Source: Caldisericota bacterium (GTDB lineage Bacteria; Caldisericota; JANLFM01). Taken from it: DNA of 16,954 bases. Location: positions 74,143 through 91,096 of the forward strand of contig JANLFM010000005.1 in NCBI GenBank assembly GCA_024655865.1. The letters run 5' to 3'. How positions within the stretch are numbered: position 1 is the first letter of the stretch; every line of letters starts with the position of its first letter. Of this stretch, positions 8,798 through 16,278 are shown piece after piece. The position numbers and the translations under genes are program-made. The notes under the pieces were generated by a model that saw only the letters and a program-made list of their open reading frames with translations, ran no database searches and was not told where the DNA came from.

Positions 8798-8859
8798 TAA
8801 AGAGCGGGTAAAAGGGCTCGCACGGAAATCGTCCAGGAAAGGAGGATAGCTTAAACCTA

Positions 8860-9010
8860 GCGCCAGGGCCTGTTTAAGGCCGACGAGGGAGAGGTTAATC
8901 GAAACTTTCGGCGGATACCTCTAGGGTCCTCTACTCCGACCTGAAGGCATGGGGACAAAACTCCGAAGAAATTCGGCGAACAAATCCCCGCCCAGGAGTG
9001 CAAAACCACA
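8860..9010 (+). ncRNA. glmS self-cleaving ribozyme-riboswitch
   Basis: The untranslated leader of glmS matches the glucosamine-6-phosphate-activated ribozyme. Cleavage is expected between A8859 and G8860 (A|GCGCC). P1 is GGCCT/AGGCC (8867-8871 with 8877-8881). P2 is AGAGGT/ACCTCT (8890-8895 with 8917-8922), enclosing the hallmark TTAATCGAAACTTTCGGCGG, with its CGAA/TTCG mini-hairpin and conserved GCGGAT. GGCG at 8910-8913 is complementary to CGCC just after the cleavage site, as expected for the core pseudoknot. Downstream, AGGGTC/GACCT resembles P3, and GGGGA/TCCCC enclosing CCGAA-GAAA-TTCGG and CGAACAAA resembles the P4 region. A GGAGG then starts at 9018. When GlcN6P accumulates, cleavage should destabilise the message. 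The 3' limit is approximate. Confidence 0.95.
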
Positions 9011-12285: not shown

Positions 12286-13023
12286 TCAAAGGGAGTTTTT
12301 GAAATAGCGCCATCCTGTCTTGGCAAACTTAATCCTTTCAGGGTCCTCTTTCAGCCATTTCTTAGCGTTGATAAAACCCTCTCTGGGATCGTCCTTTTTA
12401 GGATCGAAAAAGCCCTCAAAGCCGAAATTGGATTTCAAATAATCCTTCAGGGCGTTTTCCAGCAAATCCTGAAGTGGTTGCTTGATTTCTGTGACCAGTA
12501 CCTCGTAGCCCTTATTCCTCAGTATTTCCTTTGTTTTAGTGTGAATATGGCCGCTGCAAATATAAATCATGGTATTCTCCGGGGAAGCGTGAAGCTGCTC
12601 CAGGAGCTCTAAAGTAACTCTCGCTGCTTCATCCAGGTATTTCTTCTCCTCAAAAAATGGAGATTGAAAAAAAAGCAGTTCTATTTCTCTCCAGAGAAAC
12701 TTCTTCTGTCCGTGATGATAGACCCCGATTAATACCCCACCTATCGGACAGCCAGTACCTGCATCATCAATGTCTACCCTCTCCTCCTTCAGGGTGGCCA
12801 GTCCTTCTCCGTTCAAGAGGCGTAAGAGGGTATAGTCATCTGTAGAAACAATTTTAAACTTTCCCTTGCTGTTCCTGTAAATTACTACGTTGAACTTGGG
12901 AGAAAGTGGCAGCCTGCCCCTTCCCTTAAAGTAAATCCAGGGATCAGGAACTTCTACTTCCTCCAGGTACTCTCGGAGGATGGAAACGAAGCGATCTGCG
13001 GTTTCTTGGTCGGGAATTTCCAT
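12286..13023 (-). CDS. Uncharacterised 245-aa protein coupled to the sensor kinase
   Basis: I cannot name a family. 245 residues, soluble, no signal peptide. An N-terminal alpha-beta part contains YFKGRGRLPLSPKFNVVIYR and a Lys-rich strand (about 30-60). A central motif DIDDAGTGCPIGGVLIGVY (84-102) looks like the first strand of an RNase H/integrase-type fold, recalling the D-E-A-G motif of RNase HII. It is followed by a predicted strand with acidic residues (WREIELLFFQ), then MIYICSGHIHTKTKEILRNKGY (about 152-173), EVLVTEIKQPLQDLLENALKDYL and a Lys-rich end (WLKEDPERIKFAKTGWRYFK). The ATG at 13023 shares its A with the kinase stop (TAATG), with GGAG eight bases upstream, so translation is coupled to the sensor kinase. 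A longer frame to 13059 lies inside the kinase gene. A fold-level nuclease guess is inference only. Confidence 0.82.
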   Translation of the reverse strand: MEIPDQETADRFVSILREYLEEVEVPDPWIYFKGRGRLPLSPKFNVVIYRNSKGKFKIVSTDDYTLLRLLNGEGLATLKEERVDIDDAGTGCPIGGVLIGVYHHGQKKFLWREIELLFFQSPFFEEKKYLDEAARVTLELLEQLHASPENTMIYICSGHIHTKTKEILRNKGYEVLVTEIKQPLQDLLENALKDYLKSNFGFEGFFDPKKDDPREGFINAKKWLKEDPERIKFAKTGWRYFKNSL

Positions 13024-14420
13024 TATCCTCTCTCCAGCTTGAGGCCAAAGGTGAAGCAACTACCCTCTCCAGGAGCGCTTTCGACCTGAATTTTAGAACC
13101 ATGAGCCTCAATGATCTCCTTGGCGATAGCCAGCCCCAGTCCAGCTCCCAACTTTTCCCCGCGAGGAATCTTTGTGGATCGGTAAAAGCGATCGAAGATC
13201 CGAGGGAGCTCGTCGGGGGAGATACCGATTCCGTTGTCCTTTACGCTGATAATTGCTTCGTTCCCCTTTTTAAAGCAGGAGACTCTAACTATCCCACCTT
13301 TTTCGGTATAACGCAAGGAGTTGTCCAGGAAAATCTCCAATACCTCCCCTACCCTATCTGGATCTCCCAGGACAATGATCTTTTCTTCAGGCAGTTGAAG
13401 CTCCAAATTTACTCCCTTGCGCTGATACGGAAGGTCTAACTTATCCTTGATCCAATGAATGAGGTTTTTTAAATCAAAGGGGCAAAGCTCCATCTTGATG
13501 GCCCCGGCTTCCAAACGTGATAGCTCCAGAATAGAATTTACCAGGCTCTCGGTCTTTTTCACCTCTTCCAGCACGAGCTTCAGGCTCTCTTCCCTCTTGG
13601 CCTCTGGAAGTACCCCGTCCATCAGGGCCTCAATATATCCTTGCACAGTGGTCAAAGGGGTTCTCAGTTCGTGAGAAATATTAGCTAAAAGCTCCTTCCT
13701 GATCCTCTCTGTTTCCTCCAACTTTCTGGCCATGTCATTTAAGACCTGGGCCAGTTCTCCTAACTCGTCCCTGGAAGAGAGTTCCACCCTTGCCGTAAAG
13801 TCCCCTTGAGAGAACTTCAAAGCCATTTGCTTCATTTTCTTGATCGGCAGGGTGACCTGCCTGGAGACAAGATAAACCAAAAACAAGGAAAAAAAGGCGG
13901 CGATTCCACCTCCAATTAGGAGAGAGCTAGTCAAGGGAAAGCTGAGGACACCACCTAAGTTGGTTCTCTCCTGGACAATCTGAATGGTTCCTATCAACTT
14001 GTTGTTCACGTAAACAGGGGATGTAACCACATCAGCTTTTTGGCCATTGGATAGTGAGATCTCAATTGAGGAAGTTATCCCCTCTAAGGCCTTATCGATC
14101 TCAGCTTGCACGGGCTGAATTTCTTCTGGATACCTGGATTGCACCTGCAAATCCCCATTGGCATCAGTGAGAAAGACTTTCACTCTGTAGAACATGGAGA
14201 GCTGCTCGAGCAAGGGCCTGAGTTCATACCAGCGCCTGGCTCTTTGAATATTCTGGGCCACAATGGAGGCCAGCTCTGGCCCCCTGCGCTCAAGGGAGAA
14301 GTTGGTCAAAAACTGGGTCCATTTTGGCTCAATCACCGCCCTTTGAATTAACAGGGTAATTAAGATGGTAAGCAGGATCACAAGTAAAAAACTGAGGATA
14401 AGTTTTGTTCGGTAGGACAT
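13023..14420 (-). CDS. PhoR/BaeS-type membrane sensor histidine kinase
   Basis: 465 residues. TM1 (about 8-27), an extracytoplasmic sensor region (about 28-161, ALEGITSSIEISLSNGQKADVVTSPVYVNNKLIGTIQIV resembling a PAS/Cache-like fold), and TM2 (162-184). A HAMP linker spans about 185-238, a HisKA dimerisation domain has the phospho-acceptor H250 in ANISHELRTPL, and the ATP-binding domain has N-box EIFLDNSLRYT (N367), G1 VKDNGIGIS, F-box IFDRFYRS and G2 GAGLGLAIAKEIIEAHG. Every catalytic box is intact. The ATG at 14420 overlaps the regulator stop (TAATG), and its own stop overlaps the next gene the same way. It is the cognate kinase of the adjacent OmpR-type regulator. The signal is not evident; the periplasmic domain is generic. 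Confidence 0.96.
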   Translation of the reverse strand: MSYRTKLILSFLLVILLTILITLLIQRAVIEPKWTQFLTNFSLERRGPELASIVAQNIQRARRWYELRPLLEQLSMFYRVKVFLTDANGDLQVQSRYPEEIQPVQAEIDKALEGITSSIEISLSNGQKADVVTSPVYVNNKLIGTIQIVQERTNLGGVLSFPLTSSLLIGGGIAAFFSLFLVYLVSRQVTLPIKKMKQMALKFSQGDFTARVELSSRDELGELAQVLNDMARKLEETERIRKELLANISHELRTPLTTVQGYIEALMDGVLPEAKREESLKLVLEEVKKTESLVNSILELSRLEAGAIKMELCPFDLKNLIHWIKDKLDLPYQRKGVNLELQLPEEKIIVLGDPDRVGEVLEIFLDNSLRYTEKGGIVRVSCFKKGNEAIISVKDNGIGISPDELPRIFDRFYRSTKIPRGEKLGAGLGLAIAKEIIEAHGSKIQVESAPGEGSCFTFGLKLERG

Positions 14421-15112
14421 TATTTCAAGCTCTCAAATTTATATCCCACATCCCTCACCGTCTTAATTAGCTCGGGAGCGGAGGGGTCATTTTCTATCTT
14501 TTTTCTAATATTCCCGATGTGCACGTCCACCACCCTGGGATCTCCCACGTAATTCACTCCCCAGACAAGATCCAGAAGTTGCTCTCTGGTAAAAACTCTC
14601 CCTGGAGAAGAGGCGAGAGTTTTAAGCAGGTCGAATTCCAGAGCAGTCAGTTTAATCTCGATGCCGTTGCGCCAGACCTGCCTTGATCCTGTGTTAATTT
14701 TTAGACGCTCGTCTCCTAAGATTTCTTCCTTTTGAACTTGCCAATATTTGCTCCTTCTTAAATGAGCCTTTACCCTGGCGACTAACTCCTTGGGACTAAA
14801 GGGTTTAGTAATATAATCATCCGCTCCAATAGAGAGGCCAATTACCTTGTCAGTTTCCTCGTCCTTAGCGGTGAGAATTAGGATGGGAACGGTGGATGAT
14901 TGGCGAATCAAGCGACAGATTTCCAGACCATCGAGGCCCGGAAGCATTAGATCCAGGATAACCAGGTCAGGATGGTGCTCCTTATAAGCATTCAGTGCTT
15001 CTTCACCATCTGGAACGATGTATATGGAATATCCTTCCCGTTCCAGATAAAGCTTGATCAAATCCGCGATCTTTGTCTCGTCTTCTATTACGAGAATAGT
15101 TTCCTTTTCCAT
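14420..15112 (-). CDS. OmpR/PhoB-family response regulator
   Basis: Two-domain transcription factor of about 230 residues. Receiver: acidic pair in VIEDE, phospho-acceptor Asp in VILDLMLP (D54 counted from this start), Thr in ILTAKD and Lys in YITKPF. C-terminal winged helix: LTALEFDLLKTLASSPGRVFTREQLLDLVWG, VDVHIGNIRKKI and IKTVRDVGYKFE. It is phosphorylated by the kinase encoded immediately downstream. Two starts are possible, ATG 15118 and ATG 15112. A TATAAT (15125-15120) sits one base before the first and seven before the second, and no Shine-Dalgarno exists. Transcription should begin about 15113, so I prefer 15112 as a leaderless start (MEKETILVIEDE). It leads a three-gene operon. Confidence 0.95.
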   Translation of the reverse strand: MEKETILVIEDETKIADLIKLYLEREGYSIYIVPDGEEALNAYKEHHPDLVILDLMLPGLDGLEICRLIRQSSTVPILILTAKDEETDKVIGLSIGADDYITKPFSPKELVARVKAHLRRSKYWQVQKEEILGDERLKINTGSRQVWRNGIEIKLTALEFDLLKTLASSPGRVFTREQLLDLVWGVNYVGDPRVVDVHIGNIRKKIENDPSAPELIKTVRDVGYKFESLK

Positions 15113-15119
15113 CGCCATT

Positions 15120-15148
15120 ATTATAGGCGAGAAAGGAATAAATTTAAA
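15120..15148 (-). promoter_or_regulatory. Promoter of the response regulator-kinase operon
   Basis: On the minus strand: TTTAAA (15148-15143), a 17-base spacer, then a perfect TATAAT (15125-15120). The expected start is about 15113, adjacent to the second ATG of the regulator. The -35 falls in the T-run of the terminator of the upstream 22-aa gene, so termination and re-initiation sequences overlap. Confidence 0.65.
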
Positions 15149-15175
15149 AAGAGGAGGATGTTATCCTCCTCTTTT
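15147..15175. terminator. Intrinsic terminator with perfect 13-bp stem
   Basis: AAAAGAGGAGGAT (15147-15159), loop GTT, ATCCTCCTCTTTT (15163-15175). Read on the minus strand the hairpin is followed by TTTTT and lies 17 bases after the stop of the 22-aa gene, so it ends that transcript. Its sequence is symmetric enough to work in either direction, but no plus-strand gene here needs it. Confidence 0.88.
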
Positions 15176-15192
15176 CTACTCAAAATAGCGTC

Positions 15193-15261
15193 CTATTTCT
15201 TCTTGGAAGAAGATTTAGTGGTCTTGCCCCCGGTTTTCTTTCCGCCACCGCACTTGGGCAT
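15193..15261 (-). CDS. 22-residue Lys/Gly/Ser-rich peptide, independent transcription unit
   Basis: A very short gene coding for a 22-residue peptide beginning MPKCGGGKKTGG and ending in a Thr/Ser/Lys tail: eight Lys, no acidic residue, one Cys, no hydrophobic stretch. Its reality rests on context. A GGGAGG (15274-15269) lies seven bases before the ATG. A promoter TTGGCG-17-TATATT lies just upstream, starting within ten bases of the preceding gene's stop. A strong hairpin terminator follows 17 bases after the TAG. The peptide should be cytosolic and may bind nucleic acid or a metal through Cys4, but I do not recognise a family. The alternative is a small RNA in which the reading frame is incidental; the well-spaced ribosome site argues for translation. 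Confidence 0.65.
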   Translation of the reverse strand: MPKCGGGKKTGGKTTKSSSKKK

Positions 15262-15287
15262 ATCTAATCCTCCCTTCCTACCTGATA

Positions 15288-15316
15288 AATATAATTAAAG
15301 ATCTCTGAGGCGCCAA
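15288..15316 (-). promoter_or_regulatory. Promoter of the 22-aa peptide gene
   Basis: On the minus strand TTGGCG (15316-15311), a 17-base spacer, then TATATT (15293-15288), 4 of 6 and 5 of 6 matches. Start expected near 15281, a 20-base leader with GGGAGG. A TTGACT overlaps the -35 upstream edge (15321-15316) and could pair with a weaker TTAATT at 17 bases. Confidence 0.55.
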
Positions 15317-15324
15317 GTCAATAT

Positions 15325-16278
15325 CTAAAGCCTCTCAGCCATCACCACATGGAAAGAATAAAGTCTTTTATTTTCGCTCTTTATCCAGCAAAATTTGATG
15401 GGAGCTGCAAAAGCGGGAGAAAGGATGCCACTTTCAATTGCTTCCCGCGCATGAGGATCATTGTAAATAGCGGGGCTAGCTACGATGGTCAACCTGAAGG
15501 GGGAGTCCACAAACTCCACCCTTCTTAACTCTTCAATTGTAAATAGCTTTTCCTCCAGGTCCCATTTTTCCGCTTCCAAAAGGAAGGGACGCACATTAAC
15601 GAGAGCAATATTTTCACTCAAAGGGCCAACTATCTTGACGTTTGCCAGATCAGTATTCTTCTCCTTCTTTCTGAGGAAGTCAAGCAGCACCTCATTAGTT
15701 TCAGCTACCACTTTGCCGTGGAATGTCGAAGAAATTAAAGGCTTAAGCAGGTGTTTGGCCTTACACCCTTCCCTTAATTTGCTTTCCCCAACGGGTTGCA
15801 CTCCAAGATCAACAGCGCTGACAATTTCCCGTACCTCATCTTTGGTTAGATAAAAAAGCGGAGCAAAAACGTTATTCATCAGAGGCTCTCCCCTTAATCC
15901 CCAGGAATCGCTCTGGTTGGCGCCCGTCAGGATAAGGTGCTCTGGGAAGTTTTCCCTGATTAAGCCTAATTTAGCTTTTTTCGTGCACCGATTACACGAG
16001 GGCCCATTTTTCAGGATTTTTTCCAAAGTGGACTGGCCAGAGATAATGATGGGCTCCAGATGGAATTTCTGGCAGATGGATTTTACTCTTTCCGGAATAC
16101 TCTTATAAGTATAAGGTCCCCAATCAACGTGGGCGGGAAATACCCTTTCCTTGCCGCAGGCCTGGACGGCTAAGAAAAGAACTAAGGAACTATCTATTCC
16201 TCCGCTAAAGGCGACAACAATTTCTTTACCGGCAGAAGCTTCTTCGATCGAGCGAAGTAAAAAGGGCAGGTCCGGCAA
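15325..16278 (-). CDS. PP-loop ATPase with CxxC...C triad, LarE/TtuA-like sulfur-transfer candidate
   Basis: ATP-pyrophosphatase of the PP-loop (adenylating) superfamily, 317 residues. The PP-loop is AFSGGIDSSL (23-32), followed by HVDWGPYTY and ILTGANQSDSW (116-126). Three Cys are placed at 95 and 98 (CNRC, followed by TKKAK) and 172 (REGCKAKHLLKP), the spacing style of enzymes such as TtuA that hold a [4Fe-4S] cluster for sulfur transfer. The C-terminal 100 residues (about 210-317) form an extra domain I do not recognise, with two strand-rich stretches. Likely role: activating a carboxylate, tRNA base or cofactor for sulfur or amine insertion; the substrate is unknown. The frame opens with a TTG at 16278, a weak GGA ahead of it, 12 bases after the response regulator stop. 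LarE itself is the main alternative. Confidence 0.82.
   Translation of the reverse strand: MPDLPFLLRSIEEASAGKEIVVAFSGGIDSSLVLFLAVQACGKERVFPAHVDWGPYTYKSIPERVKSICQKFHLEPIIISGQSTLEKILKNGPSCNRCTKKAKLGLIRENFPEHLILTGANQSDSWGLRGEPLMNNVFAPLFYLTKDEVREIVSAVDLGVQPVGESKLREGCKAKHLLKPLISSTFHGKVVAETNEVLLDFLRKKEKNTDLANVKIVGPLSENIALVNVRPFLLEAEKWDLEEKLFTIEELRRVEFVDSPFRLTIVASPAIYNDPHAREAIESGILSPAFAAPIKFCWIKSENKRLYSFHVVMAERL

Follow-up and report, generated by a model that had tools for sequence, protein, structure and literature searches.

A gene of only 22 codons, flanked by genes for a PP-loop ATPase and a response regulator of the OmpR type, is present in a Caldisericota bacterium and, on comparison with related genomes, almost certainly encodes a protein. 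By the same comparison, selection has maintained the Lys-rich peptide in three or more species of a single Caldisericota family. The gene is located in a stretch of DNA of 16,954 nt, subsequently designated the window.

Gene layout and signals for expression

The initial annotation of the window had described a free-standing gene for a 22-residue basic peptide, and indeed Shine-Dalgarno sequence, ATG, 22 codons, stop codon and terminator are all present (Table 1). Its account of the product holds as well: MPKCGGGKKTGGKTTKSSSKKK contains eight Lys residues, a single Cys and no acidic residue, and in addition no Arg. The hairpin, which had been read as a perfect stem of 13 bp, does comprise 13 Watson-Crick pairs followed by a T-rich tail, but it possesses one further G-U pair. 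A Walker-A-like stretch in the peptide, GKKTGGKT, was set aside as a coincidence, as the congeneric species described below has GKKATSKT.

The gene had further been placed between two operons. It does lie between its two neighbors, but both are encoded on the same strand and only 63 nt separate the end of the ATPase gene from the ATG. Since strand and short gap agree and no terminator-like site is listed between the ATPase gene and the small gene, the latter may possibly be read by co-transcription from the former. The promoter is the weakest part of the gene call. The candidate TTGGCG-17-TATATT (15316-15288) matches 9 of 12 consensus positions, with TTGACT at 15321 as an alternative box, and promoter-like sites barely exceeded the shuffle background (4 found vs 2.2 expected). 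The three gene-bearing species each have a TTGAC box 5' of the ATG, at -60, -55 and -59. A dedicated promoter is a plausible reading of the sequence; the abundant transcript that promoter and terminator had been taken to imply is speculation.

Table 1. Positions of the small gene, its predicted signals and its neighbors in the window.
Feature	Position	Strand	Remarks
22-codon CDS MPKCGGGKKTGGKTTKSSSKKK with stop TAG	15193..15261	-	ATG at 15261; codon-level conservation
Shine-Dalgarno GGGAGG	15269..15274	-	7 nt 5' of ATG
Intrinsic terminator	15146..15176	-	13 Watson-Crick pairs plus one G-U, loop AAC (3 nt), T-rich tail
Putative promoter TTGACT/TTGGCG ... TATATT	15288..15321	-	consensus match only
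PP-loop ATPase (upstream neighbor)	15325..16278	-	LarE-like by weak match, under family cut-off
OmpR/MtrA-type response regulator (downstream neighbor)	14420..15112	-	ATG at 15112
Response-regulator promoter with TATAAT	15120..15148	-	
Histidine kinase after response regulator	13023-14420		

Three further features of the window were noted alongside. The open frame of the response regulator has its first ATG at 15118, which probably lies two codons ahead of the true start. Directly 3' of the histidine kinase gene, positions 12286-13059 (-) encode a 257-aa protein for which Pfam and NCBIfam returned no match. A glmS ribozyme is located at 8848-9003 (+), just 5' of a glmS gene of this Caldisericota genome.

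Codon-level conservation in related genomes

Five genomes of a small Caldisericota family were compared, i.e. the window genome (G000) and G001, G002, G003 and G004. The congener G001 (Caldisericota A05DMB09, contig JANLFL010000003.1) carries a 22-codon ORF, MPKCRGGKKATSKTTKSTSKKK, at the same position and with zero indels, and a search with the real frame recovered this gene at E 3.8e-4. Both ORFs differ by 16 substitutions in 69 nt, which are distributed over the three codon positions as 5/1/10 (binomial P 0.016), and NG86 estimates amount to dS 1.19 and dN 0.13, i.e. dN/dS ~0.11. All eight Lys residues are retained, with silent swaps between AAA and AAG. When sets of 16 substitutions were drawn at random, 0.017% kept an intact ORF with ≤5 amino-acid changes. 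Conservation reaches 80% in the ORF, as compared to 64% and 68% in the flanks.

A third gene was found in G003, which belongs to a different genus. Here, the ATPase gene is followed by 262 nt, a 22-codon ORF (MPCGAKKAPAKATAKKTPTKKK) and then the same response regulator, and the gene is equipped with a strong Shine-Dalgarno sequence, a promoter-like TTGACG box (-59) and a self-complementary hairpin of 13 bp whose sequence is unrelated. Alignment of this peptide to the other two is uncertain owing to low complexity (shuffle P 0.004-0.006), but all three agree in having exactly 22 codons, eight Lys and a single Cys and in lacking acidic residues. The Shine-Dalgarno sequences of the relatives read AAAGGAGG and AGGAAAGGAG; GGAGG is placed 7 nt from the ATG in two species and GGAG 9 nt in the third, so that the proper spacing of a ribosome-binding site, a criterion for a small protein-coding gene, is found in three species. 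Likewise, the terminator starts 16-18 nt past the stop codon in all three, while the stem sequences differ.

In G002 and G004, which represent a third genus, the gene is absent from the locus: the ATPase gene reaches the regulator promoter, leaving no room for the ORF. As two genomes of another genus lack it at this locus, the small gene is dispensable. Second copies were not detected by pattern search in the five family genomes.

The initial annotation had suggested looking for codon-level conservation and had named broken frames in relatives as the outcome favoring a small RNA. The frame and its length of 22 codons turned out to be intact in the congener and in the second genus, and the substitutions between congeners bear a codon-level signature. 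Because frame, length, Shine-Dalgarno sequence and terminator are kept and the substitutions in the congener are concentrated at synonymous positions, we regard the gene as protein-coding rather than as a small RNA only.

A tentative role in RNA binding and its alternatives

The best explanation at present, which we advance tentatively and with less than even confidence, is a free-standing gene for a 22-residue, intrinsically disordered and polycationic microprotein that would bind RNA, perhaps on the ribosome. Transcription would start at the gene's own promoter or run on from the PP-loop ATPase gene, and would terminate at the hairpin, and the resulting short mRNA would be translated efficiently. 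Once Met has been removed before Pro2, the peptide would serve as a cationic ligand of RNA, in association most probably with the ribosome or with RNA. Its Lys clusters KK 8-9 and KKK 20-22 would make contact with phosphates, and the N-terminal Cys, the only one in the peptide, would be free to engage in metal, thiol or disulfide chemistry. RNA binding, to which we give the same tentative weight, is suggested by composition alone, the analogy being with bS22 (PMC10618245) and other tiny ribosomal proteins rich in Lys and Arg.

The same composition would fit binding to DNA, membranes or polyanions equally well. The chief rival is a role at the nucleoid or on polyanions in general, in which the peptide would be a cationic, tail-like molecule resembling histone H1 tails or polyamines rather than a ribosomal factor; we consider this rather unlikely. 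AKATAKKTPTKKK and KTTKSSSKKK resemble H1-like tails in composition, and the G003 peptide gave a weak, non-significant match to the Rv3852 family (E 1.2). However, no DNA-binding domain is present and the likeness to H1 tails is compositional only.

It is improbable that the transcript itself is the product, as a non-coding or dual-function small RNA in which the ORF is incidental or secondary. The putative transcript is short and ends at a strong terminator, and similarity of the downstream flank slightly exceeds that of shuffles (0.68 vs a maximum of 0.60). Against this stand the frame-specific substitution pattern with its low dN/dS of ~0.11, the constant Shine-Dalgarno spacing in the congener and the length of exactly 22 codons in all three species, as well as the lack of conservation of the hairpin stems; no Rfam covariance model matched the small-gene region at its gathering score.

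Slightly less probable still is that the 22-mer represents a shortened relative of bS22/mS38 or another ribosomal mini-protein. Members of the bS22/mS38 group (AURKAIP1/COX24 family, PF08213) are likewise tiny and Lys/Arg-rich, and annotation frequently overlooks them. In bacteria, many bS22 proteins begin with MP[CSN]GxKK and carry KKK at or near the end, as does the G003 peptide, which also scored against bS22 of F. johnsoniae at a shuffle P of 0.013. A search of 386 genomes for the G003-type signature MPCGxKK returned mainly N-termini of bS22 (MPCGKKKKRHKIATHKRKKRLRKNRHKKK and similar), identified as such through match to solved ribosomes. However, bS22 proteins are 29-31 aa long and contain a conserved helical core rich in His and Arg; this basic core, which defines bS22, is absent from the 22-mer, and the score of the window peptide against bS22 remained within the shuffle range (P 0.23). 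The 22-mer was accordingly rejected as bS22, as it matches neither PF08213 nor NF047430 and a separate bS22 is encoded in the genome. A full bS22 of 30 aa, MGSVLKKRRKKISKHKLKKRRKALRHKRKK, was recognized in this Caldisericota genus, at G000:C1:54008-54088 (L290) and in the congener (L284), scoring 34.9 bits with PF08213 (cut-off 23). Since both genomes carry it elsewhere, the 22-mer does not replace bS22. Further basic ribosomal mini-proteins, such as bTHX, resemble the 22-mer in size and charge, but the sequence of the 22-mer found no counterpart in Pfam, NCBIfam and PDB.

Least likely is that the small ORF serves the response-regulator/histidine-kinase operon as a leader peptide or attenuator, where ribosomes stalled at its Lys codons would control the terminator. 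A short Lys-rich ORF immediately before a terminator and a same-strand regulatory operon would suit this arrangement, but in all five family genomes (the window at 15112-15125 and L030, L031, L032, L033), including the two without the small gene, a TATAAT ends 6-8 nt 5' of the response-regulator ATG, suggesting that the regulator is transcribed from its own promoter, probably as a leaderless mRNA that does not depend on the small gene. This putative promoter argues against a leader role, and so does the failure to find a conserved antiterminator pairing with the 5' arm of the terminator (0, 7 and 2 bases paired, at differing places); moreover, constraint spans the whole peptide and not only a run of codons.

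Distribution and similar phage peptides

Searches of Pfam, NCBIfam, PHROGs and PDB with the window peptide detected no family match. When ~85,000 species, not including the window's own genome, were scanned for MPKCxGxKK, 34 matches were obtained. The single real one is that in the Caldisericota congener; the remaining 33 were set aside, their count being about that expected by chance. The profile search missed the G003 gene, and hence absence elsewhere, as far as it is based on similarity, is weak evidence.

On viral contigs, 10 of 58 distinct ORFs with MPCGxKK are short and preceded by a Shine-Dalgarno-like site (one or two are doubtful), as compared to none of 27 for the order-swapped control MPGCxKK. 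Ultra-short Lys-rich phage peptides of this kind (L119, L121, L128, L140, L146, L148, L197) have strong Shine-Dalgarno sites, and several of their ORFs are located just 5' of terminase or head genes, according to gene names read from the translations. Like the microprotein proposed here, MPCGGKKTGGKRPPKK (L119) and MPCGSKKPTKKVKTTKKK (L197) start with MP(K)C(G)GxKK and have a Lys/Gly/Thr-rich tail ending in KK(K), and in L197 a terminator-like hairpin follows downstream as well. The closest, MPCGGKKTGGKRPPKK, has the run GGKKTGGK in common with the window peptide, which reads GGGKKTGGK there. Unlike the 22-mer, the phage peptides comprise 13-18 aa and belong to phage genomes; they were picked by pattern, which biases the similarity scores; convergence is possible, and common ancestry is undemonstrable at such length. 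Searching the phage collection with the peptide by tblastn gave no matches, nor did two DNA searches with the phage loci, and no annotated relatives of the phage MPCGxKK peptides were found. That the window peptide belongs, with these phage peptides, to a larger undescribed class of MP(K)C(x)GxKK microproteins of 13-22 residues, present in phages and some bacterial chromosomes, provided with strong ribosome-binding sites and acting on ribosome or RNA through their likeness to the bS22 start, appears to us a long shot.

Significance

The gene presents a clean case of a locus far under the size limits of annotation whose protein is demonstrably selected, in a little-studied phylum. Should the likeness to phage and ribosomal mini-peptides go beyond convergence, this would hint at a class of microproteins, associated with translation or RNA, that has so far been overlooked.
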